This document shows positions 10,367-43,216 of a DNA stretch of 64,000 nt, in pieces. How positions within the stretch are numbered: the first letter of the stretch is position 1; the number at the start of each line of letters is the position of its first letter. Where the stretch lies: NCBI GenBank assembly GCA_016788425.1, contig JAEURQ010000003.1, forward strand, positions 341,282 through 405,281, in the 5' to 3' direction. The position numbers and the translations under genes are program-made. Origin of the DNA: Chthonomonas sp. (GTDB lineage: Bacteria; Armatimonadota; Fimbriimonadia; Fimbriimonadales; Fimbriimonadaceae). Below the pieces are notes generated by a model. The model ran no database searches. It saw only the letters and a list, made by a program, of their open reading frames with translations, and was not told the origin of the DNA.

Positions 10367-11559
10367 AGCTCGGCGTCGTAGTGCTGGGGTTGGCCGCGCT
10401 CGCGGCGGCGCTGGGATGGCGTCCGGCGGCACCTGCGGCCACCGTCATTTGGATCGGCGGCAACACCAGCGGCTACCTCGAACCCTGCGGATGCGTCAAG
10501 CCGATGACCGGCGGCATTCGCCGTAAGGCCACCCTTCTGCGTCAACAGCGCGGGGCCGATGATCTCACCGTCGAGCTTGGGCCGTTCATTAAAGACCCTC
10601 TGCGCCAGAGCCAATTGAAACTTGACGCAATGGCGGAGTTTGGCCGCGCCGCTCAGGTGGACGCAATGGGTTTGATGGCCGGGGACATGAAGCTCGACGG
10701 CCCCGTGCTGGCGGCGGCCAACAGCCTGAGCGGAGGCCGGTTCGTTCAATCGCAAAGCACGGCGGTGACGCAGATTCAAGAAGCGAAGGGCTGGACGATC
10801 GGGGCGATCAGTCCCCGTCTCGGCGATCCGGGGACGGCCTGGACTCAGCTGAGCTCCGCCGCGGGCGAGAACCCAATTCTCGTGATGTTTGATGGCGACC
10901 TGGAAGCGGCCAGCGCGTTCGCGGCCAATCGAACCGGACTCAAGGTGGTCTGCTACCCGAGTAGCTCGCCCGAGGCCAAAAATGTCGGCGGCGTGATGGT
11001 GGTCGGAACCGGTGAGCGCGGCAAGTATGTCGGTCGGCTTGACCTGACTGCGAAGCGCTACAAGTCGTTCGCGCTCGGGCCAGAGTTCGCCGACGATTCC
11101 GCGGTCAGCCGAGTGATGGCGCGCTACCTCGCGCGGGTCAAAGGGGAAAATCTCATCGCGCAGGAGCCGCGCTCGCATGCGGCGGCCTTCGCCGGAAGCA
11201 AAGCCTGCGCGCCCTGCCATACCAAGATTGTTGATCAGTGGACAAAAACCGGTCACGGCAAGGCGTTTGTGACGCTGCAAAAGGAGCAGCACGACTTTGA
11301 TCCGGACTGCGTGAAGTGCCATGTGGTGGGTAAGGACAAAACCACCGGTTTCGTGAGCGTGGCGAAAACGCCGCAATTGCAACACGTCGGCTGCGAAAGT
11401 TGCCACGGTCCGGCGCGCGACCACGCCAAAAAGCCGAAGGTCTACAAGCTCGCCAAGGCCGGCCCGCAAAGTTGCCAGACTTGTCATGTGCCCGACCACA
11501 GCCCCGCGTTCAACTTCGACAGTTACTGGCAGAAAATTAAGCACGGACGCCCGAAATAG
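10363..11559 (+). CDS. Secreted tetraheme cytochrome c with metallophosphatase-like N-terminal domain
   Basis: The protein has 398 residues from ATG 10363, which overlaps the preceding stop. A leader (about 1-26) is followed by a domain opening GNTSGYLEPCGCVKP and GGIRRKATLL, the known start of phosphatase-like domains joined to cytochromes. The C-terminal third (about 275-385) has four CXXCH heme sites: CAPCH, CVKCH, CESCH and CQTCH. The spacing, with HGKAF between, resembles cytochrome c554-type proteins. It should sit in the periplasm or at the surface and carry electrons; donor and acceptor are unknown. A longer open frame starting at 9898 overlaps the preceding gene and is not used. Confidence 0.88.
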   Translation: MKLGVVVLGLAALAAALGWRPAAPAATVIWIGGNTSGYLEPCGCVKPMTGGIRRKATLLRQQRGADDLTVELGPFIKDPLRQSQLKLDAMAEFGRAAQVDAMGLMAGDMKLDGPVLAAANSLSGGRFVQSQSTAVTQIQEAKGWTIGAISPRLGDPGTAWTQLSSAAGENPILVMFDGDLEAASAFAANRTGLKVVCYPSSSPEAKNVGGVMVVGTGERGKYVGRLDLTAKRYKSFALGPEFADDSAVSRVMARYLARVKGENLIAQEPRSHAAAFAGSKACAPCHTKIVDQWTKTGHGKAFVTLQKEQHDFDPDCVKCHVVGKDKTTGFVSVAKTPQLQHVGCESCHGPARDHAKKPKVYKLAKAGPQSCQTCHVPDHSPAFNFDSYWQKIKHGRPK

Positions 11560-11572
11560 GTTATAAAACGCT

Positions 11573-12529
11573 ATGCGATTTGCATTGAGTTGTGTTGTTC
11601 TGGCGGCGGCCGTGGTGAGCCAAGCCAGCTTCGAATTAGGGATGGCCCTGCGCGCCACCGAGGTCTATCGGTTCGACGCCGAACGCATGATTCCGCTCGG
11701 TAGCTTCGGCGCCGGCCGACTCATCGGCGCTCGCGCAATGACGACCAACCCGGTTCTGGGCGAAGCCTACGTGTTGCATGGCTCGGGCAAGGGTATCGCG
11801 GTTTTCGATTACAACACGGGCGAGTATAAGCGCGGCATTTCGCTGGGCTCGAGCTCGGGCTATACCCACATTTCCATCGCTGCGAATGGCAACCTTTTGG
11901 TCTCCGGTGCCTACGGATCGACCAGCGAGTTCGCCGAGTATTCGGCCACCGGCGGCGGTCTCCAAACTTTTCGGACCTTGACCACTGGTTACGTCGGGAT
12001 CGACTTTATCAAGATGCCGAACAACTACTTTTATGGTCTGGCTCGACGCCCGGTCTCCACCAGTTGGGAGTACATTCTGCAAACCTATAACGGCACCGCC
12101 TTGACGGCGACAACTGTACTGGGTACGACCTCAAGCACCGATGAATATAAGGGTCTTATCTCATCCGGATCACGATTCAACATCACCCGAAACACCAATG
12201 TGCCATCGGTGTTCTATACGGCGCTTGCGGGTGGGGGATTCTCAACCGGTGTCAACTGGAGCTATGTGTTTAGCACGGGTCCGATTGTGGCTAACGCGTT
12301 TGGGCACGGCGACCTGATCTACTCCATGCGTAATATCTCGTTCTCCACCCCGAATCGGTACGAATTGCAGCCGTGGGACCCCTCGATCATGAGCTTCGTA
12401 CCGGCGACTTACTTGAACGGCATGCCCGAGGATTTTGTGGACTTCGTCACCGTGATCGCGCCGGAACCCAGTTCCATGGTCGCGGTGATGGCGGGCGCAT
12501 TCTTGCTATTGCGACGTCGTCGGAACTAG
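11573..12529 (+). CDS. PEP-CTERM sorting-domain protein
   Basis: The protein has 318 residues: a signal peptide (1-18), a beta-rich body, and the C-terminal tripartite signal APEPSS - hydrophobic span - LLRRRRN. PEP-CTERM tails are cut by exosortase EpsH-type enzymes and mark proteins for the outer surface or exopolysaccharide matrix. The body contains repeated short strands (for example GKGIAVFDYNTGEY) that suggest a beta-propeller, but this is inference. It follows the cytochrome gene by 13 bases. Confidence 0.88.
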   Translation: MRFALSCVVLAAAVVSQASFELGMALRATEVYRFDAERMIPLGSFGAGRLIGARAMTTNPVLGEAYVLHGSGKGIAVFDYNTGEYKRGISLGSSSGYTHISIAANGNLLVSGAYGSTSEFAEYSATGGGLQTFRTLTTGYVGIDFIKMPNNYFYGLARRPVSTSWEYILQTYNGTALTATTVLGTTSSTDEYKGLISSGSRFNITRNTNVPSVFYTALAGGGFSTGVNWSYVFSTGPIVANAFGHGDLIYSMRNISFSTPNRYELQPWDPSIMSFVPATYLNGMPEDFVDFVTVIAPEPSSMVAVMAGAFLLLRRRRN

Positions 12530-32154: not shown

Positions 32155-32925
32155 TTAGCGAGCGCGTCGTCGGAGAACGAGGAGAGCGCCACCAACGGCC
32201 AGGACGGCAGCCGAAACGGGTTCGGGCACGACTTGGGTGGTGATGTTCGAACCGTCCAACCAACCTTCGCAGGCCGAGCTGAAGTTGGTCAGCTTGCCTT
32301 GGCTGTTGTAGGCTGCGGTTGTACCGGCTCGCGGGTGGAACCAGATACCGAACTTGTTGGCGAATTGGGCGCCTTCCCACTCGGCGGGGTTGCCGAAAGC
32401 CGGAACGTGAGCGTTGATGCCGTTGACATCGAGCTTGAAGCCCATGACTCGGTCGCCGCCTTCGTTGCGGATGAAGATGTCCTTGATGAAGGAGCTGTCC
32501 ACGAGCGAGGAAGCAACCAGGTCGCCGCCGTCGTTCACGCCATCGCCGTTACCATCGCGGTAGCTGCTGGCCGAGTTTTGGCCGTTGTAGGCGTAAACCG
32601 TGAGCTTCGGAGCGTTGAGGTTCGTACCGTCGAAGTAGAACAAGGCCAGTTCGTCCGGGGTGCCCTTCGGGTTCGGACCCTTCGAAATGGCAAGGGTGAA
32701 CGCGTCCGACTTTTGGCTGGTGCCAGGAACGTTGCCGAGCTTGGTTTCGAAGTAGAGGACCTTGCCGACCGACGCGTACTGCGTGAGGACCGACTTGATT
32801 TCGCCGCCACCATTGCTGATGCCGTAGGAGCCGCCGGTGTAACCCGGGTACTTCGCTTCATAAACGCTGGCGTTAGCGGCTACTGCGGCTACCGTCGCGA
32901 TGAACAGAACAGATTGAAAACGCAT
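32155..32925 (-). CDS. PEP-CTERM protein, paralogue A
   Basis: The 256 residues have a signal peptide (about 1-19) and the tail VVPEPVSAAVLAVGGALLVLRRRAR. The body includes DELALFYFDGTN, TVYAYNGQN and KFGIWFHPRAG, each matched in the next gene (NELAIFYYDVSG, TAYNYNGQN, KMGIWMHPVSG). The two are therefore duplicates about 250 residues long. They should be exosortase substrates displayed outside the cell. GAGGAGA just upstream of the ATG is the strongest ribosome-binding site in the region. It has its own terminator. Confidence 0.9.
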   Translation of the reverse strand: MRFQSVLFIATVAAVAANASVYEAKYPGYTGGSYGISNGGGEIKSVLTQYASVGKVLYFETKLGNVPGTSQKSDAFTLAISKGPNPKGTPDELALFYFDGTNLNAPKLTVYAYNGQNSASSYRDGNGDGVNDGGDLVASSLVDSSFIKDIFIRNEGGDRVMGFKLDVNGINAHVPAFGNPAEWEGAQFANKFGIWFHPRAGTTAAYNSQGKLTNFSSACEGWLDGSNITTQVVPEPVSAAVLAVGGALLVLRRRAR

Positions 32926-33110: not shown

Positions 33111-33851
33111 TTACTTGCGCTTGCGGAAGGCAAGGAACGCGCCGCCCACGGCGAGGATCGCGGCCGAGGCCGGTTCCGGCACCACTTGCGTCTTCAGGTT
33201 TTCGCCATCGAACCAACCTGCCTTGCAGAAGTTGAACGACTTGAGGAAGCCATCCTTGTTGTAGCTGGTGCTGAGGCCCGAGACCGGGTGCATCCAGATG
33301 CCCATCTTCGAACCAAACTTGGCGCCCGTCCACTGACCTTGCACGCCGCTCGCCGGTCGGTGAGCGTTAATCGCGGTGGCGTTGATGTCAAAGCCAAGGA
33401 CCTTGTCTTGACCTTCGGTGCGGTTGGTCAGCGAGAAGATGCTCGAAGCGTTGTTCTTCGACGAGAGCAGCTTCGTGCCGGTTTGGTACGACGTGTAGCC
33501 ATTTTGACCGTTGTAGTTGTACGCGGTGAGGACCGGGTTGGAGCCGCTCACATCGTAGTAGAAAATCGCGAGTTCGTTAGCGTGACCCTTAGGGTTAGCA
33601 CCCGGGCTGACAACGAGCCAGAAGCCGTTGGCCTTGAGGCCGGCGCTCGACTTGCCGAGGGTGACTTCGTACTTCAGGCGGTTGGTGCCCGAGTCGAACA
33701 CGGTGGACATCTTCTTGATCTTGCCGGCGTCGTGGTTGATGCCGAGGTTGGGAAGATTTTGGCCATTCCACGACATTTCGTAGACCGAAGCTTGGGCTGC
33801 GGTTCCAAACGAAATTGCGCTAAGAATAAAGATTGCAGTTGCTTTGTTCAT
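33111..33851 (-). CDS. PEP-CTERM protein, paralogue B
   Basis: The 246 residues share body and tail with the neighbour at 32155-32925: signal peptide to about residue 21, body with NELAIFYYDVSG and KMGIWMHPVSG, tail VVPEPASAAILAVGGAFLAFRKRK. Tail logic and probable surface location are as for paralogue A. The ATG lies at the 3' arm of a 7-bp hairpin that holds the CAGG part of the Shine-Dalgarno region in its loop (33852-33872). The gene ends with its own terminator. Confidence 0.9.
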   Translation of the reverse strand: MNKATAIFILSAISFGTAAQASVYEMSWNGQNLPNLGINHDAGKIKKMSTVFDSGTNRLKYEVTLGKSSAGLKANGFWLVVSPGANPKGHANELAIFYYDVSGSNPVLTAYNYNGQNGYTSYQTGTKLLSSKNNASSIFSLTNRTEGQDKVLGFDINATAINAHRPASGVQGQWTGAKFGSKMGIWMHPVSGLSTSYNKDGFLKSFNFCKAGWFDGENLKTQVVPEPASAAILAVGGAFLAFRKRK

Positions 33852-33899: not shown

Positions 33900-35219
33900 T
33901 TACGCGGCCAGAGATACGCGATTTCTTCCGGACGCCTTGCTTTCGTAAAGCGCCTCGTCTACCCGGTGGACAAGACTTACGGCGGTTTCATCGTTGCGCC
34001 AGTAGGTCAGGCCAATGCTAGCCGTGACCTTGCCGGCACTTGTGGTCATTGCCTCGATCGCGCGGCGCGTGCGTTCGGCGATGATCTGCGCCTCGGGGAC
34101 CGAGGTCTCGGGGAGCAAAACAATGAACTCCTCGCCGCCGATTCGGGCAACATGATCGGTTTCTCTGTAGAGCCCGGCCAACGCTTGACCAGTTGCGACG
34201 AGCACTTCATCGCCCACGCCGTGACCAAACGTGTCGTTGATCTTTTTGAAATGGTCGAGGTCGAGGCTGAGAATGCTGAGGTTGCGCTGGTAGCGGCGTG
34301 CGACCTGAATGCACTGCGCAATGGCGGTATCAAACGCGCGGCGGTTGGCCAGGCCGGTGAGTGGATCGGTCAAGGTCAGTTCTTCCAGGCGCATGTTGGC
34401 TTGCTCCAGTTCGCCTTTGGCTGCCTCGAGCGCTCGATTTTGCTCGGCCGCCTGCAGCATGTACTCGGAAACCTGGGCTTCAAATTCTTTTTGCGAGCTA
34501 ATGTCCTCCAGCGAGATCAGGAGTTTGGTCGGCTTGTGGTTGGCGACTTCGTAAACCTCACCGGTGCAGGAATACCAGCGCAGATTGCCGTTGTCATCTT
34601 GGGAGGTGAACTCGGTCACAAATCGCTCGCCAAACTGAAACTCGGCGACATCTTCGTAGCGCGGACGGAACGGAACCGGGTCGCACGTGACCATTTCCCA
34701 AATGTGGGAGCCCATCGCCTTGATCTCGGGCACCGTGATGCCGAAGGCGGCGACCGTGTTTTCGCTGACCCATGACATACCAAAGCTCGGTAGATCGACC
34801 AAGAGGTGTACCGCCGGATTGAGAGCGATGATTTTCTCTAGGAATTCGCGGTTTGCGGTGAGTTGCTCCTCTTGCCAGCGGTAGCCAGAAATGTTGGTGG
34901 CGGTGACGACAAACTCGCCGCTCGGCGTTTGGCTGAATTGACACTCAAACGGAGTGCCGCCGAACTCGGGTTTGGTCACCAGCAGAATCGCGCCGGACTC
35001 GGCGGTGGATTCGCGCAGAAGTTGTTTGGCGGCCTCGCTGGACGCGCTGTCGAGCAGACCAAGCCATCGGTAGCCGGCCACGGATTGGGCGCTGGCCATC
35101 AGCACGAACAGGCCAGTGGCGTTTACCGATTGGACCGCGCCGGAACGATTAGTCACCACAGTTGGGATGGGCAGCAGCTCGGCTAGCCCCCTTAAATCAA
35201 CTTCACTCACTCTTAACAT
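33900..35219 (-). CDS. PAS-containing diguanylate cyclase (GGEEF)
   Basis: The 439 residues include one or two PAS-like sensor domains (about 10-235, for example LPIPTVVTNRSGAVQSVN and RWYSCTGEVYEV), a helical linker with AAEQNRALEAAKGEL, and a GGDEF domain with LTDPLTGLANRR and active site GGEEF (about 361-365). RETD seven residues before it keeps the product-inhibition site. It makes cyclic di-GMP in response to an unidentified signal. Cyclic di-GMP commonly controls exopolysaccharide and surface proteins, and the adjacent PEP-CTERM genes are possible targets. GGGGAAGAG precedes the ATG. Confidence 0.93.
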   Translation of the reverse strand: MLRVSEVDLRGLAELLPIPTVVTNRSGAVQSVNATGLFVLMASAQSVAGYRWLGLLDSASSEAAKQLLRESTAESGAILLVTKPEFGGTPFECQFSQTPSGEFVVTATNISGYRWQEEQLTANREFLEKIIALNPAVHLLVDLPSFGMSWVSENTVAAFGITVPEIKAMGSHIWEMVTCDPVPFRPRYEDVAEFQFGERFVTEFTSQDDNGNLRWYSCTGEVYEVANHKPTKLLISLEDISSQKEFEAQVSEYMLQAAEQNRALEAAKGELEQANMRLEELTLTDPLTGLANRRAFDTAIAQCIQVARRYQRNLSILSLDLDHFKKINDTFGHGVGDEVLVATGQALAGLYRETDHVARIGGEEFIVLLPETSVPEAQIIAERTRRAIEAMTTSAGKVTASIGLTYWRNDETAVSLVHRVDEALYESKASGRNRVSLAA

Positions 35220-35283: not shown

Positions 35284-36042
35284 ATGCAACTGAATCAGCA
35301 CAAAATGGTGTATTCATTGATGATGCGCAACAAAGTTTTGTTTATGGTTGTCGCGAGTGTGTTGACCAGTCTCTCCCTCACCGGTTGTAAAGCCGTAAAG
35401 GACCAGCTTTCCAAGGACATGGATCGCCCGACGCAGCCCACGACCGAGGCGGTCGCGGCGGACGTGTATCTCGACCTGAGCGGCTCGACGAATTCGTTGC
35501 GAGCGCCAATTGCGACGCTGATTAAGGACGTGCTCGACACGCACCCGAAAACCATGCGGGTGAACTACTCAACGTTCAACAAGGACGTTCGCGAACTCGG
35601 CAACACGCTGAACGCGGGGACCTATCTGGACGAGATGGGCGCACAGTGGGAGGCTCTGCCCAAGGCCGAACCGCGCGGTACCCTGCTCGGCGGCGTGTTT
35701 GAGCACGCGGCCAAGGTCGCGCGCCGCGATACGAGCATCAAGCGCATCGTGGTCATCGGTACCGACGGCGGGTTTGAAGACAACATGCAGCAAGTGTTCA
35801 ACGGGCTGGAAAGCCTGGTGCAAGCCGGCAACCTGCAGATGATCGTGTTTGTCGGTGTTCAGCCGGGCAACTCGGCCAAGCTCAACAAGCTTAGCGAGAT
35901 TGCCGACTACGCGAAGAACCTGCGCACGGAGTTTCCCGTCCAGGTTGTCAACGTGCTCCTTTCGCAAAACTCGGTCGCGATTGCCGATGCGCAGCGCGGG
36001 ATTAAGGAGCTAATGGAGCCAGCAGCCAATGGCAGTAAGTGA
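35284..36042 (+). CDS. VWA-like lipoprotein, first gene of a four-gene operon
   Basis: The 252 residues have a leader ending in the lipobox LTGC (C35), so the protein is a membrane-anchored lipoprotein. The rest is VWA-like: VYLDLSGST gives metal-site residues D64, S66 and S68, RGTLLGG gives T133, and VIGTDGG gives D161. Such domains bind a metal ion and partner proteins. The family is not one I recognise beyond the fold. It overlaps the next gene by 14 bases. An internal ATG near 35308-35323 is a possible alternative start, because GGGAG lies only 3 bases before ATG 35284. Confidence 0.75.
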   Translation: MQLNQHKMVYSLMMRNKVLFMVVASVLTSLSLTGCKAVKDQLSKDMDRPTQPTTEAVAADVYLDLSGSTNSLRAPIATLIKDVLDTHPKTMRVNYSTFNKDVRELGNTLNAGTYLDEMGAQWEALPKAEPRGTLLGGVFEHAAKVARRDTSIKRIVVIGTDGGFEDNMQQVFNGLESLVQAGNLQMIVFVGVQPGNSAKLNKLSEIADYAKNLRTEFPVQVVNVLLSQNSVAIADAQRGIKELMEPAANGSK

Positions 36043-37153
36043 TTTTCGAAACAGTCTAGGGGCGTCGCGCGCGATCAGTGCGCCCGATCCCGCGCAGCAG
36101 GGTGCCTTTGAGCAGCCGACGATCGTCTCGTCGGAGCAGGAAGAACACCTTGCTCAAGAACTCGCGACGGAACTCGGCGAGAAGGGTTTTAACACCCGGC
36201 AAGCCGCCGAGGCGGTCGGCTACTGGCGAGCCTACGCCGACCAAACTCGCGCCTGGAGCAGCTCCGTGGCCGCGCTCCGCGCGGCGGAGGAAGTTGGTGA
36301 CGGGTTCCGCGCCCGGGCAACGGCGTTCATGGCCGCTTGTCGACGACAAAACGTGCGGTTCCGCACGCCGCGCGTGCTCAACGATCGCGCGATTGAAGAC
36401 GTGCTGCTGCGCGCGACCAAGAAGCACGACAAAACCACGATGAAGGTGGCGGGCGGTATGTTTGGCCTCGTCGTGGCGATTATGCTGAAGGCATACCTCC
36501 TGCTTCCGGTCGCGAACACGTTTTTGGGCAAGCTGCTCGGGCCGGGAAACACAATCACCAAAGGCACGTTTAGCTTCGCGCTGGCTTGTGTGATCGCTTA
36601 TTCGATTACCTACGCAATGCGCTTCCTCATGCAGTTGGTCGTGCACATGAACGCGGGTGACGCGATTAAGCCGACCCGAAACCTCGGAGAGTTGCTGACG
36701 ACTCGCGCCAACAAGGCGATTGTGTTCGCTGTTGGCTTCATGTTCATCATGGTCATCTACAGTTTTCTGCGTTACGACGTGGGGACGGCGGAGGCGGATG
36801 GTGGCGCGTTCTCGGCGTTTGGCCTGAACTTCCTCTTCCTCATCATCGTGATCGTGTACGAACTCGCGGTGGCTTATCGAACGGCGTACTTCCAGATTAA
36901 TGGTAAGCCCGAAATTGCGGACGACCTGATCGAAAAGTTCAACGTCGCCATGGAGCGCTGGCACGACGAGGAAGACCTCGGCAAGCTGCGCACGCTCGTG
37001 TTGCTCAACCAGCAACGCTGGGCAGACTTTATGCGGCAACTCGACGCCGGCATGTTCGAAGGCAAGAAGTCGGTTGAGAACCGCGCGAACGCGCTCAACC
37101 GTATGCGTGGCACCAAGACCAACGTTGTCTCCGTATTCGGGCCGAAGAAATGA
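36029..37153 (+). CDS. Four-span membrane protein, second gene of the operon
   Basis: The 374 residues begin with a soluble, charged N-terminal part (1-135), then membrane spans at about 139-160, 180-205, 229-247 and 261-283, then a charged soluble C-terminus (DEEDLGKLRTLVLLNQQRWADFM). No known motif was found. It overlaps both neighbours (14 bases upstream, ATGA 4 bases downstream), so co-translation and complex formation with the two VWA-like proteins are likely. Its function is unknown. Confidence 0.72.
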   Translation: MAVSDFRNSLGASRAISAPDPAQQGAFEQPTIVSSEQEEHLAQELATELGEKGFNTRQAAEAVGYWRAYADQTRAWSSSVAALRAAEEVGDGFRARATAFMAACRRQNVRFRTPRVLNDRAIEDVLLRATKKHDKTTMKVAGGMFGLVVAIMLKAYLLLPVANTFLGKLLGPGNTITKGTFSFALACVIAYSITYAMRFLMQLVVHMNAGDAIKPTRNLGELLTTRANKAIVFAVGFMFIMVIYSFLRYDVGTAEADGGAFSAFGLNFLFLIIVIVYELAVAYRTAYFQINGKPEIADDLIEKFNVAMERWHDEEDLGKLRTLVLLNQQRWADFMRQLDAGMFEGKKSVENRANALNRMRGTKTNVVSVFGPKK

Positions 37154-38256
37154 GCCGCTGGCTGACCATCCTCGCGATAGTGCTTTCGTCGGCGTTGCTC
37201 GTCGGCGCGACGCTCAGCCTCACCGGGCCTACCGTTTTGGCGCAGGAAAGCCGTGAAGGCGTGCTGCTCCCGCGGGTCGAAGCGCCCAAGGTTGAGCGGG
37301 TGACCGAGGATGAACAGCCCGTGGAACAGGTGAAGCGCGAGACGTTCCGGCGGGAAGAGGAATTCAACATTCGCGTGCCGTACGCGTTGGAGCCTGATTC
37401 GTTTATTGCGGTCACGCCCGGCTTGGTCATCGAACGACAGCAGTTGGAGCCGATTTATCTGGAGCGTTCCGACGAGGTGCGGCCGATTTCCATGGCGCTG
37501 ATTCTTGACAACTCGTGGAGCATGATCCGCGTGAATCCGCGCAACGGCGAGCCGCCGCAAGACCCCAAATATATGCGTTTGGACGCGGCCCGCAACCTCA
37601 TGGGCAAGCTCCGCGAAAAGGACCAAGTCACCTTGGGCGTGTTCCCGCCGCGACGCAGTGTCGTGCCCGTGGATTACCCGCCGGTTGATCCGCCGCTGGA
37701 GCAAGTTGCGTATCGCTCGAAACCGTCGGAAGTCAGCAAGGCCCTTGAGCTGTTGCGCGGCGAAGAGAACGGCACGACGCCGCTGTACCGCGGCATTCAG
37801 CGCGGGATTGAGGTCGCCAACGGCGTCGCGGGAAATCGCCCGATCGTGGTTGCGCTCACCGATGGCAAGGACACCGAGGAGATTCCTGGGACGTTCTCGT
37901 CAGTGATCGAAACCATCAAGGCTCACCCCGAAACGAAGCTCTACATCATCGCGCTGGGCGAAGGCGCGGACGTGCCGCTTCTGCAGCAACTCACCAAGAA
38001 CATCATCAAGGTGGACGACTCGGCGAACCTGCGGCTGGCCTTCGACCAGATTCAACGCGACTTGAGTAAGGACCTGATCGGCACGCACGTGCGGCTTCGA
38101 TTCCGCCGCGTGGACAAGGATTTCGCCGATGGCGAATCGCTCCGTGTGCGCTACAAAGTCGGGGCGAAGGTCAAGGATTATGACGTCGTGCTCGGCACGC
38201 CGGTCACTCCGCTGACCGGTGGGACCAAACCTGAGATGCCGAAGGTGGCCAAGTGA
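37150..38256 (+). CDS. VWA-domain protein, third gene of the operon
   Basis: The 368 residues have a membrane anchor or signal segment (about 4-31) followed by a VWA domain. ALILDNSWSM carries D120, S122 and S124, NGTTPLYRGI has T210, and VALTDGKD has D238, so the metal site is complete. After the domain, the C-terminus has KVGAKVKDYDVV and a Pro/Lys-rich end. It likely faces the periplasm. Start ATG overlaps the preceding stop by 4 bases, and the next gene begins at GTG over this stop (GTGA). Confidence 0.85.
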   Translation: MSRWLTILAIVLSSALLVGATLSLTGPTVLAQESREGVLLPRVEAPKVERVTEDEQPVEQVKRETFRREEEFNIRVPYALEPDSFIAVTPGLVIERQQLEPIYLERSDEVRPISMALILDNSWSMIRVNPRNGEPPQDPKYMRLDAARNLMGKLREKDQVTLGVFPPRRSVVPVDYPPVDPPLEQVAYRSKPSEVSKALELLRGEENGTTPLYRGIQRGIEVANGVAGNRPIVVALTDGKDTEEIPGTFSSVIETIKAHPETKLYIIALGEGADVPLLQQLTKNIIKVDDSANLRLAFDQIQRDLSKDLIGTHVRLRFRRVDKDFADGESLRVRYKVGAKVKDYDVVLGTPVTPLTGGTKPEMPKVAK

Positions 38257-38759
38257 TTTACGCCAAGCACGTGGTGTATCTGGGCCTGGTGCTCGCGATT
38301 GCGCCCTGGCTCGGACGGGCGTTGGTCAACCTCTATTTGGAACGTTTTCGCCTGAGTCCGGTGCCCGCGACGTGGGTGTTGCTGGTGGGCTCCATCACCG
38401 TTGGGTTCGGGTTGCCGCTGCTGGGTCAAGGCGTTTTTGACCTACTTTCCACCCAGACCACGCTGCAAAGCCTGGTCGCAAGAATGATTGCGCTGGGCGT
38501 GGTGGGCCTGCTGTTTGGCGTGCTCATCGGGCTACAACCCTACATGCACTTTTGGCGGGCGATGCTTCTCGGCGTGATTGCCGGAGTTGGGTGCGCCTGG
38601 CTGTATAGCGTGTTGCCCGCAGAATGGTGGAGCCTGGTGATCTACGCGACCGTGCTTGCCGGGTTACCTCTCTTGAGTTTTGAGGCACCCAACAAGTCGG
38701 GGCAAATTCGGGTTCGGGCGAGTCGGCGGAATTCGCCGATGCGCGGCCTTTGGCACTAG
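38253..38759 (+). CDS. Multi-span membrane protein, fourth gene of the operon
   Basis: The 168 residues have about four membrane spans: LGLVLAIAPWLGRALVNLYL, then VPATWVLLVGSITVGFGLPLL, then MIALGVVGLLFGVLIGL, then the segment from MLLGVIAGVGCAWLY onward. The short basic tail is RVRASRRNS. Start is GTG within the preceding stop. I do not recognise it; it is the last gene of the overlapping set beginning at 35284. Its stop shares CTAG with the converging HTH gene. Confidence 0.68.
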   Translation: MIYAKHVVYLGLVLAIAPWLGRALVNLYLERFRLSPVPATWVLLVGSITVGFGLPLLGQGVFDLLSTQTTLQSLVARMIALGVVGLLFGVLIGLQPYMHFWRAMLLGVIAGVGCAWLYSVLPAEWWSLVIYATVLAGLPLLSFEAPNKSGQIRVRASRRNSPMRGLWH

Positions 38760-39334
38760 TCGCGGATATCGCGACCGTGCTCTTCGACAAACTTTGCGAC
38801 GCCGCTGAGGCGGAATCGGCGTTGACCACCCTTGGTGCGGTGGTGTCCTAGCCAACCGCGATTGGTGTAGCGGCGCACCGTGGCCGGGCAGACGCCCAGA
38901 ATGCGGCTCACTTCTTCGAGTGTGAGTTCAGGGTCAAGCAGGCGCTCAATGAGTTCGGCTCGGGTTTCCTTGAACTCGCCACGATAGTAGTTGGCGGTGA
39001 CCGAGTCGTTGAAATTCGACTGCAGGAAGTTGATGATCTTCGGCAAGTGCGACCAAAGGCGTTGCGTTTCGGTGTTCAGGCTTTCGCTGGCGGCATCCTT
39101 GGCCTTGACGCGGCGGGGACGCGGCGCGCTGAGGGCTCGCTTGCTTTCAGTCGTTGCTCGTGGAGCGTGCCCATTTCTCGAGGCCGCATCCTTTTCCATC
39201 ACGGCCGTGCGCGACGGCGTGGGCTTGGTATCGGAAAATGCGTTCTCGATATAGGCGACCGGATCAAAATCTCCGGCGGCTCCCCCCTTATCGGTCGTTT
39301 GACTCACGACATTTATTGTACTTAACCGAGGCAC
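38756..39334 (-). CDS. MerR/excisionase-type helix-turn-helix DNA-binding protein
   Basis: The 192 residues have a long low-complexity N-terminal part (about 1-125, Ala/Lys/Arg-rich) and a C-terminal winged helix-turn-helix: LTLEEVSRILGVCPATVRRYTNRGWL and GGQRRFRLSGVAKFVEE. The pattern matches the DNA-binding half of MerR/helix-turn-helix type 17 domains, without a ligand-binding dimer part. It faces the VWA operon tail-to-tail and so is not clearly its regulator. It may regulate queA downstream or act elsewhere. Confidence 0.82.
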   Translation of the reverse strand: MPRLSTINVVSQTTDKGGAAGDFDPVAYIENAFSDTKPTPSRTAVMEKDAASRNGHAPRATTESKRALSAPRPRRVKAKDAASESLNTETQRLWSHLPKIINFLQSNFNDSVTANYYRGEFKETRAELIERLLDPELTLEEVSRILGVCPATVRRYTNRGWLGHHRTKGGQRRFRLSGVAKFVEEHGRDIRD

Positions 39335-41118: not shown

Positions 41119-41841
41119 TTGACCAGAACCAGTAGCCGAATTTTTGCCACGTTGGCCCTTGCCAGCCTCACCGCCGCCAGCATGGCGCAAGCCGAACCGC
41201 TCAGCTTTAAGCGCACGGTGACCGAAGGCGCGACGACCAAATACAAACTTCAGGTCGCGCTCGAAATCCAAGGCAACGCGATTGAGATCACGGCGAACAT
41301 CACCGAGAAGATCGTGAAGGTCGAAAAGGACGGCTCGTACTCGGTGGAGAGCCTGGAATCCGACATGGAACTCAAGATGGGCGGGCAATCGTTCCCGACC
41401 GACGAAGGCGATTCCAAGCCGCGAACCACGAAATATTCCGCCGCTGGTGTGCCCTTAGAAATGCTGGGCTCGGATGACGACACCACGCCAGAGTCGGCTC
41501 GCCTTGAGTTTCTGAACATCATTGACCTGCCCGCCGAGGCCAAGAAACTGGGCGATAAGTGGTCGAGCCTCATCAAGCCGGCCGACAAGTTCAAGGCCGA
41601 AACCGTGAAGTCCGACTACGAGTTTGTGCGCACCGAAAAGGTGGGCGCATGGGATACCGCAGTCGTCGTCGCGACCACGAAGGAGCAGGCCGGCGACAAG
41701 CCTGCCGAATCCAAAAAGACGATGTGGCTCGACACCAAGGACTTTTCGCTCGTGAAGATTGAGGCCAAACTCACCAACGCACCGCTACCGGGAATGCCCG
41801 ACCCGGTGGACATGACCATCTCCATCACGCGTCAACCGTAA
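41119..41841 (+). CDS. Secreted protein, first of three tandem paralogues
   Basis: The 240 residues start at TTG 41119 with GGGAG about 7 bases upstream, and have a signal peptide (about 1-26). The body begins with the shared pattern KRTVTEGATTKYKLQ and continues EITANITEKIVKVEKDGSYSVE and later LGDKWSSLI and VGAWDTAVVVATTKE. The same layout is repeated in the next two genes, suggesting local duplication. It is a beta-rich envelope protein. Possible membership in a DUF6263-like family cannot be confirmed here. Confidence 0.78.
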   Translation: MTRTSSRIFATLALASLTAASMAQAEPLSFKRTVTEGATTKYKLQVALEIQGNAIEITANITEKIVKVEKDGSYSVESLESDMELKMGGQSFPTDEGDSKPRTTKYSAAGVPLEMLGSDDDTTPESARLEFLNIIDLPAEAKKLGDKWSSLIKPADKFKAETVKSDYEFVRTEKVGAWDTAVVVATTKEQAGDKPAESKKTMWLDTKDFSLVKIEAKLTNAPLPGMPDPVDMTISITRQP

Positions 41842-42518
41842 TGCTCGCCGCCGCCGTTCTCGTTGTTAGCCTGCTGAACCCCGCTCAAGAGGTTCAGCTT
41901 CATCGCCGCGCCAAAATTGGTGACAAGGCGACCTACGCGCTGACGATGTCATTCAAGTCGAATGGCAGCGACGTCAAGCTGACGGGGACGGCGCGCGAGG
42001 AAGTCACTCGCGTCGAAGATCGCACCATCGTGACGACCCGCAACTTGGGCGACATGGTCATCGAGATCGGCGGCCGTCCGCAAAAGATCGAGGACACGTC
42101 GCAGGTGCGAATTGTCCAGCTTGATAACGGCCAGATCGTCGATCTGATTCGCGACAAGCGCAAGAGCGAGGACTTCCGCATGGCGAATCTCTCGCAGATC
42201 GTCGTGCCGTACTCGGGCCTTGCCAAAGGCAGCAAGTGGAAGGTTGACCTGAACGCCAACGCGGGCACCGGGCTGCGAACGTCCATTTTGCGGTTTGAGG
42301 TGCTCGAACTGGAGACCGTGCTCGGCCAGTCCTGTGCGCAGGTGTTCCTCACCGGCGAAGAACTTGAGGGCAAGAACCCGATCAAGTCGCGCGGCTCGGT
42401 GTGGATTTCGACCAAAGACGGTCGCCTTGTCAAAAGCTCGCTGACCATTGATAACGCAGCCCTCGGTGACGGGCAAGCCGGAGTCACCGTAAAATCCGAA
42501 CAGGAATTGAAACCATGA
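41841..42518 (+). CDS. Secreted protein, second of three tandem paralogues
   Basis: The 225 residues have a short leader (about 1-18, LAAAVLVVSLLN). The body begins RRAKIGDKATYALTM and later shows LAKGSKWKVDL and a WISTKDGRLVKSSL strand, the same signature parts as its neighbours. Start ATG overlaps the preceding TAA by one base. Function is unknown; a tandem triplication is the most useful clue. Confidence 0.76.
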   Translation: MLAAAVLVVSLLNPAQEVQLHRRAKIGDKATYALTMSFKSNGSDVKLTGTAREEVTRVEDRTIVTTRNLGDMVIEIGGRPQKIEDTSQVRIVQLDNGQIVDLIRDKRKSEDFRMANLSQIVVPYSGLAKGSKWKVDLNANAGTGLRTSILRFEVLELETVLGQSCAQVFLTGEELEGKNPIKSRGSVWISTKDGRLVKSSLTIDNAALGDGQAGVTVKSEQELKP

Positions 42519-43216
42519 AAACCCGATTGATGTTGCCGCTTCTGCTGGTTTTGGTCGCGCCGCTGGCGATGGCCGACCAAAAGTACGATCTCGCCCGCAA
42601 GGCCAAGGTCGGCGATACGTCGAAGCAGAAAATCGTGATGAAGATGCCGTTCGAGGGCGAGTCGTTTGAGTACACGATGCACGAAACGGCGAAGGTCGTG
42701 AAGGTCGAAGAGGACGGCACGGTCGAGCTGGAGCAGGTCACCGAATACGTGAAGCTGATTACCGGCGGTGAGACGATTGACCTGACTACCGAAGAACTTG
42801 AGCCGGAAAAGGCGACCGAAAAGTACGCGAAGAATGGCAAGTTCCTCAGCGCCGAAGACATGGACGGCGACGATACGATTTTCCGAATTCACCATTTGGT
42901 TGACTTCATCCGCCCTGATAAGGTCGTGGGCAAAGGCGACGAGTGGACGTTCGAGTTCGACACCAAGGATCGCAGCGGCGCGAAGTCGGGCGCGGCCAAG
43001 TTTAAGTTCGCAGAGGTCGAAAAGGTGGGCTCGTTCGAGTGCGCCAAGGTCACGTTTAGTGCCGAGGAAAAGGAAGGCGACAAACCCGCGACCAGCGAGG
43101 GCACCTATTGGATTCGTTTGAGCGATGGCGCGATGATCAAGGGCGAAGTGAAGTGCAAAAACTTTCCCGACGAGGAGCCAACCGACGCTGAACTCACGTT
43201 CGAGCTTATGCCCTAA
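42515..43216 (+). CDS. Secreted protein, third of three tandem paralogues
   Basis: The 233 residues have a signal peptide (MKTRLMLPLLLVLVAPLAMA). Their body, LARKAKVGDTSKQKIVM ... FEYTMHETAKVVKVEEDGTVELEQV ... VVGKGDEWTFEF ... GSFECAKVTFSAEE ... YWIRLSDGAMIKGEV, aligns part by part with the two genes before it. Acidic residues are abundant. The start overlaps the second gene's stop (ATGA), so all three are translated in series. The stop shares CTAA with tdk. Confidence 0.78.
   Translation: MKTRLMLPLLLVLVAPLAMADQKYDLARKAKVGDTSKQKIVMKMPFEGESFEYTMHETAKVVKVEEDGTVELEQVTEYVKLITGGETIDLTTEELEPEKATEKYAKNGKFLSAEDMDGDDTIFRIHHLVDFIRPDKVVGKGDEWTFEFDTKDRSGAKSGAAKFKFAEVEKVGSFECAKVTFSAEEKEGDKPATSEGTYWIRLSDGAMIKGEVKCKNFPDEEPTDAELTFELMP

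Follow-up and report, generated by a model that had tools for sequence, protein, structure and literature searches.

Bacterial systems built on von Willebrand factor A (VWA) domains with a metal ion-dependent adhesion site (MIDAS) are known chiefly in partnership with MoxR ATPases. What, then, is the role of an operon that encodes two such VWA proteins and two membrane proteins, and no ATPase? We addressed this question for a four-gene operon, named A-B-C-D here, in Chthonomonas sp. of the family Fimbriimonadaceae (Armatimonadota; assembly GCA_016788425.1). The window, by which we mean the whole stretch of 64,000 nucleotides that was analyzed, covers positions 341,282 to 405,281 of contig JAEURQ010000003.1, and positions given without a locus name are numbered from its first nucleotide. 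Gene A (35284..36042) encodes a 252-residue lipoprotein with a VWA domain, gene B (36029..37153) a four-span membrane protein of 374 residues, gene C (37150..38256) an exported VWA protein of 368 residues, and gene D (38253..38759, GTG start) a small membrane protein of 168 residues. A-B-C-D looks like a hitherto undescribed cell-surface machine. Our leading reading, to which we give somewhat less than an even chance, is that it is a maintained operon for an ATPase-free envelope complex in which two periplasmic MIDAS modules serve metal-dependent docking.

Conservation and distribution of the operon

A sequence-only reading of the locus had described four coupled genes on the plus strand, and the open reading frames (ORFs), their order and their spacing bear this out, with successive overlaps (A/B, B/C and C/D) of 14, 4 and 4 bases. 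B was present in 8 of 113 genomes of the order, and the identical 8 were its carriers among 291 genomes of the phylum, with none in the other 283. The profiles of A and D matched exactly those 8 genomes of the order, and full-length C was found in the same 8, so that the four families co-occur across the order, in line with a check which that reading had proposed. It had also named separation of the genes in related genomes as a refuting result; they stay together in all eight. Gene calls in the relatives were mechanical.

Apart from the window genome, the carriers all belong to a single other genus of Fimbriimonadaceae (g30; seven genomes), the named members of which are Fimbriimonadaceae or Armatimonadetes genomes. 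B starts no more than 14 bases from the end of A, and D and C overlap by 4. Orthologues were 25-36% identical to the window proteins, compared to an rpoB identity of 72-74%, and the four proteins therefore evolve fast. All ten MIDAS residues are nonetheless invariant across the eight copies; in both A (D64/S66/S68, T133, D161) and C (D120/S122/S124, T210, D238) they complete the site, are kept in 8/8 orthologues, and lie at the positions first read from the sequence. Because the order A-B-C-D was kept in 8/8 genomes and the ratio of nonsynonymous to synonymous substitution rates (dN/dS) within g30 was 0.02-0.10, the operon is not a chance arrangement. It is under purifying selection.

In all seven g30 copies the upstream neighbor is a TrmH-like methyltransferase gene, identified by eye. 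The operon is missing at the corresponding site of G107, a g30 member that is 99% complete. The distribution is patchy, since the window genome is not sister to g30 in the rpoB tree, and loss and old transfer are indistinguishable as its cause. Beyond the phylum, the search covered plasmid, phage and viral-contig collections and, in pattern-seeded scans that used B itself as the query, about 85,000 species genomes. The plasmid, phage and viral-contig collections yielded no relatives of the operon. The contig scan with B as a single protein gave no match, and the scan with a two-row alignment gave five genus-g30 loci only. One B match in the window genome (G000:C4:569148) was rejected as chance, being a reading over a PilT-like gene with two stops.

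As a separate observation, two ORFs that share 4 bases (10462-10731 and 10728-11648) take the place of C at L021:10462-11648 of Armatimonadetes bacterium Uphvl-Ar1. This reflects either a frameshift error or a real division of the gene, with the signal segment in one ORF and the VWA part in the other.

The two VWA proteins

Against the Pfam VWA family (PF00092, cut-off 23.8 bits), C passed with 27.7 bits (E=3.8e-6) and A scored 23.0 bits, slightly under the cut-off. Despite this score, the predicted structure of A is clearly a VWA fold. The AlphaFold model had a predicted local distance difference test score (pLDDT) of 73 overall and near 90 across most of the VWA domain. Foldseek matched it to 221 PDB chains at E<=0.001, and the VWA structures matched include CMG2 (template modeling score 0.74 on the target) and BatB (0.60; entries 3ibs/4jdu). 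The VWA domains of calcium-channel alpha2delta were also among the matches. VIA-align gave Z values of 15-17 to many VWA domains, and the fold proposed for A thus withstood structural comparison. C is predicted to contain a VWA domain with a complete metal site. Neither A nor C as a single query matched the PDB by sequence, and the C profile gave just weak integrin-like and thread-matrix VWA matches.

A carries the lipobox LTGC, kept as L[VTA]GC in the orthologues, in agreement with its first description as a lipoprotein. C has a hydrophobic signal segment at the N-terminus and beta-rich flanks around the VWA domain. Hydropathy shows a single hydrophobic segment in each of A and C, at the N-terminus; a weak second peak in A falls within the VWA fold. 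Because of these location signals, both VWA domains would lie outside the inner membrane.

The two membrane proteins

A simple hydropathy scan predicted four hydrophobic spans in B and about five glycine-rich spans in D, which fits the sequence-only reading of both as membrane proteins, D being a membrane bundle. The ends of B are large and charged and lie outside the four spans, with soluble helical parts of about 140 residues at the N-terminus and about 90 at the C-terminus. Nothing in Pfam, NCBIfam, PADLOC or PHROGs scored above cut-off for B or D, and the view that they belong to no known family was upheld across these four collections. The model of B (pLDDT 60, low confidence) had no fold match at E<=0.001.

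Related sets across Armatimonadota

Weak matches of the C profile in a sister family, f2, led to loci L057 and L058. In each, three genes spaced by no more than 11 bases encode A', a VWA protein with a single span, B', a four-span protein of 520 residues, and D', a protein with DUF2135 and a membrane bundle; the gene for C', a VWA lipoprotein, follows on the same strand after a few kilobases. About 1.9-3.7 kb, again on one strand, lies between C' and B' in the five f2 genomes that have both on one contig. Among the 291 genomes of the phylum, 31 carry B'. Of the 23 inspected loci that were informative, and that are not independent of each other, all but L108 have a VWA-type gene immediately upstream of B' (22 of 23). 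Three further loci gave no information: L111 is another copy in G160, L158 is cut by the end of the contig, and at L159 the frame of B' is unresolved. In 13 loci, B' is followed by D'. Sets were recorded at L057, L058, L092-L099, L107 and L109. Outside the mobile elements and the G120 locus described below, the sets are located among chromosomal genes. The MIDAS positions D60, S64, T131 and D159 do not vary among 19 A' sequences.

Profile comparison with hhalign gave 98.1% (E 1e-13) for A against A' and 98.2% for C against C', the latter over 241 columns that include the non-VWA flanks. These values argue strongly for homology of A with A' and of C with C'. D against the membrane part of D' reached 82% (E 1e-5), and these two are probably homologous. 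B against B' gave 55% in a local alignment. Mismatched controls gave 0.3% (B-D'), 0.4% (D-B'), 1.8% (C-A) and 66.7% (C-A'). When 52 membrane proteins of the same loci were ranked, the top nine for B were all B' and those for D all D'. The chance of this is 8e-5 for B and 2e-7 for D if the targets are independent; the targets are in fact interrelated, and both values are therefore underestimates. The B' profile found no B match in the window genome.

Two candidates for C-like proteins, L107:1789-2781 and L110:2606-3529, were rejected by alignment. The other VWA matches of the C profile were mostly long proteins sharing 50-100 columns and were set aside as generic VWA domains. In G107, the g30 member that lacks the operon, L158:5627-6733 encodes a 368-residue B'-like four-span protein at a contig end that cuts off its upstream partner; this protein is a possible bridge between B and B'. 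At L058:4677-5807, the DUF2135 part of D' matches the phage family phrog_1735 (E 5e-26), the function of which is unknown.

The sequence-only reading had called the operon an undescribed system. This holds in that the unit is conserved and B and D match no known family, and needs amending in that the operon is not isolated, since a remote four-component set and many VWA/four-span pairs, some of them on mobile elements, occur across Armatimonadota. We found nothing in the open-access literature that joins Armatimonadota, DUF2135 and VWA proteins in such a system, and the A'B'D' sets are likewise undescribed there.

A docking complex as the leading explanation

Since the operon has no ATPase, a docking or scaffold complex is the most economical explanation. 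In such a complex, lipid-anchored A and exported C would place both VWA domains outside the inner membrane. Each would hold a divalent metal, with a free coordination site that could accept an acidic residue of a partner. B, with both termini predicted inside, four spans and soluble helical ends, would form the membrane part together with the glycine-rich bundle of D. The VWA modules may then dock in a metal-dependent manner on loops of B and D, on an envelope client, or on both, and the cytoplasmic helices of B may relay or anchor the docked state. The metal chemistry has precedent, in that the coordination of a VWA MIDAS metal is completed by an acidic residue of the partner, and MIDAS mutants of NorD abolish maturation of the client, which supports binding of the client by the MIDAS (PMC9976466). 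The coupling of the genes suggests that the complex is a physical one in the membrane. In favor of this explanation are the gene order and spacing kept in eight genomes, the shared distribution of the four genes, the ten invariant MIDAS residues, the VWA fold of A and the low dN/dS. The f2 set, moreover, has like ingredients, namely a VWA protein, a four-span protein, a membrane bundle and a nearby VWA lipoprotein, with the profile matches and controls given above.

Several points weigh against the docking complex. The operon is absent from G001, of the same genus as the window genome, and from G107 of g30, and such a patchy distribution fits an accessory function more than a core one. The complex, the localization, the docking and the relay to the cytoplasm are predictions, and the client or ligand is hypothetical. 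Because the model of B is poor, the topology of B stands on hydropathy and charge. Homology of B with B' appears weak and is suggested by shared position and topology; against the subset of B' from mobile elements and family f35, B reached 5%.

A wider form of the docking explanation is possible, and we hold it more loosely. The window operon would be the compact form of undescribed, phylum-wide, ATPase-free envelope machines that pair an outward VWA protein with a four-span protein bearing cytoplasmic helical arms, and that were recruited in two forms, one a stable chromosomal operon that includes a second VWA protein, the other a surface module carried by integrative elements. The conserved and selected set itself, with two different outward MIDAS modules and no local ATPase, would add another bacterial use of integrin-like metal docking and would give two unannotated membrane families (B and D) a testable partner context. 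The VWA/four-span pair is a candidate for annotation as a system because it recurs across Armatimonadota, including on mobile elements.

Comparison with known systems and alternative explanations

The alpha2delta proteins are membrane-anchored extracellular VWA subunits that promote the assembly or gating of calcium channels. By analogy, B, with D, could be a channel, transporter or signaling protein, with A and C promoting its assembly or gating. We consider this unlikely, although it fares best among the alternatives to a docking complex. The membrane-anchored VWA gene adjoins the gene for a polytopic partner in all but one of the informative loci above (22/23), and the likeness to alpha2delta is that of an anchored extracellular VWA domain serving a multi-span partner. 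However, alpha2delta, which is among the structural matches of A, is one of a generic set of VWA matches, and B, with its poor model, matched no transporter or channel family or fold. The alpha2delta proteins are also eukaryotic, have other domains and show no sequence relation to A or C, and the analogy is functional only.

Mobile elements raise another question, which is whether VWA/four-span pairs act in transfer or exclusion, the chromosomal operon being a domesticated copy. In G017, G066 and G095, all of the family of the window genome, A'/B' pairs stand with Replic_Relax, a TrwB/TraG-like coupling ATPase, a zinc-ribbon membrane protein and a recombinase (identified by Pfam for G066 and by resemblance for G017 and G095), the pair lying between the Replic_Relax/coupling-ATPase block and the recombinase. 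G067 has a VWA/four-span pair with a similar ATPase, a zinc-ribbon protein and an integrase at L106, and a second copy at L161 with an integrase nearby. A family of integrative elements with a conserved block is recognizable in Fimbriimonadaceae (L160:3191-9515, L102:4861-11377, L103:5083-11622 and L106:5138-11669), the block consisting of the coupling ATPase, Replic_Relax (not called in L106), the zinc-ribbon protein, a lipoprotein or anchored VWA protein, the four-span protein and a recombinase. The best single-sequence match of A is the mobile copy in L102. In contrast, the operon carries no mobility gene, has ordinary GC content and has conserved flanks among its g30 copies, plasmids, phages and viral contigs gave no match, and the B profile reached just 5% against the subset that holds the mobile copies. 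Descent from such an element is therefore improbable. In L160 and L102, a proline replaces the last residue of the DxSxS motif. At the integrase end of the L160 element, L160:2900-3163 holds two direct repeats of 128 bases that are 99% identical and start 136 bases apart, possibly a duplication of the attachment site.

A VWA membrane pair was also seen in a defense-like setting. In G120, L101:185-8252 encodes a metallophosphoesterase and a Lamassu LmuB-like SMC protein, with the genes for a VWA lipoprotein and a four-span B' of 988 residues directly after them and SIR2-like and PD-(D/E)XK genes nearby; this locus is possibly a defense cassette with a VWA membrane pair. The window proteins had no convincing counterpart in PADLOC (best E 0.018, for C), and neither had the tested A', B' and D'. 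A known anti-phage defense system was accordingly rejected as an explanation for the operon, there being no PADLOC family match.

The four genes could also have unlinked functions, A/B acting in one process and C/D in another, and share a transcript for convenience. In favor of such a separation, A'/B' pairs in the phylum often lack a C-type VWA gene in their vicinity. All four genes are nevertheless co-inherited in 8/8 genomes, and C' lies less than 4 kb from B' on the same strand in f2 genomes with both on one contig; we regard separate jobs as improbable too.

VWA proteins are frequently paired with MoxR (PMC9976466, PMC5700661), and the window genome has two MoxR genes. Both are on other contigs (C2 and C4) than the operon (C3), and Pfam of the flanks gave GGDEF and HTH_17, so that the earlier statement that the operon has no MoxR ATPase, within it or beside it, stands. 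Bat operons (MoxR, DUF58, BatA, BatB, BatD and BatE) resemble A-B-C-D in having two VWA proteins with periplasm-facing MIDAS in one envelope operon, and the fold of A matches BatB and the Bacteroides fragilis protein 4jdu. They differ in that A-B-C-D has no adjacent MoxR, DUF58, BatD or TPR gene (by Pfam of B, D and the immediate flanks), that A is lipid-anchored and C exported whereas the Bat VWA domains sit between membrane spans, and that Pfam shows no relation of B and D to Bat proteins. The MoxR/VWA pairs NorQ/NorD, CbbQ/CbbO and RavA/ViaA share a MIDAS VWA domain that likely binds an acidic patch of a client, but NorD most likely resides in the cytosol and works with an ATPase encoded beside it (PMC9976466), whereas A has a lipobox, C a signal segment and neither an adjacent MoxR. 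The closest likeness in layout is to the A'B'D' sets, which have the same order of VWA protein, four-span protein and membrane bundle, f2 adding a nearby VWA lipoprotein homologous to C; their B' is about 500 residues, D' has an extra DUF2135, C' lies outside the compact operon, and the homology of B and B' is weak. A-B-C-D is thus neither a Bat operon nor a MoxR/VWA pair. It may act in a similar way, together with a MoxR encoded elsewhere in the genome, but the specific proposal that A and C are BatA/BatB- or NorD-like proteins that use such a MoxR to mature an envelope protein is very doubtful: the closeness of A to the BatB fold and the commonness of VWA-MoxR pairing speak for it, and against it are the lack of MoxR in or beside the operon in the window and of any adjoining gene shared with the relatives, the predicted place of both VWA domains outside the inner membrane, apart from a cytoplasmic ATPase, and the lack of Pfam resemblance of B and D to Bat partners.

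Genomic neighborhood

A-B-C-D is bounded upstream by a divergent PAS-GGDEF diguanylate cyclase gene (33900..35219, minus strand) and downstream by a convergent helix-turn-helix (HTH_17) gene (38756..39334, minus strand) that overlaps the end of D by 4 bases, both assigned by Pfam. Neither has a counterpart in the flanks of the seven relatives. The GC content of the operon is ordinary for the surrounding region, and it carries no mobility genes. A consensus scan of the operon found no sigma-70-like promoter, a scan that is uninformative.

Exported proteins occur in tandem on both sides of the operon. Two with similar sequences, at 32155-32925 and 33111-33851 on the minus strand, have a PEP-CTERM-like C-terminal sorting signal (VVPEP..A). 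At 41119-43216 on the plus strand there are three similar exported proteins of 225-240 residues in tandem, apparently duplicated.

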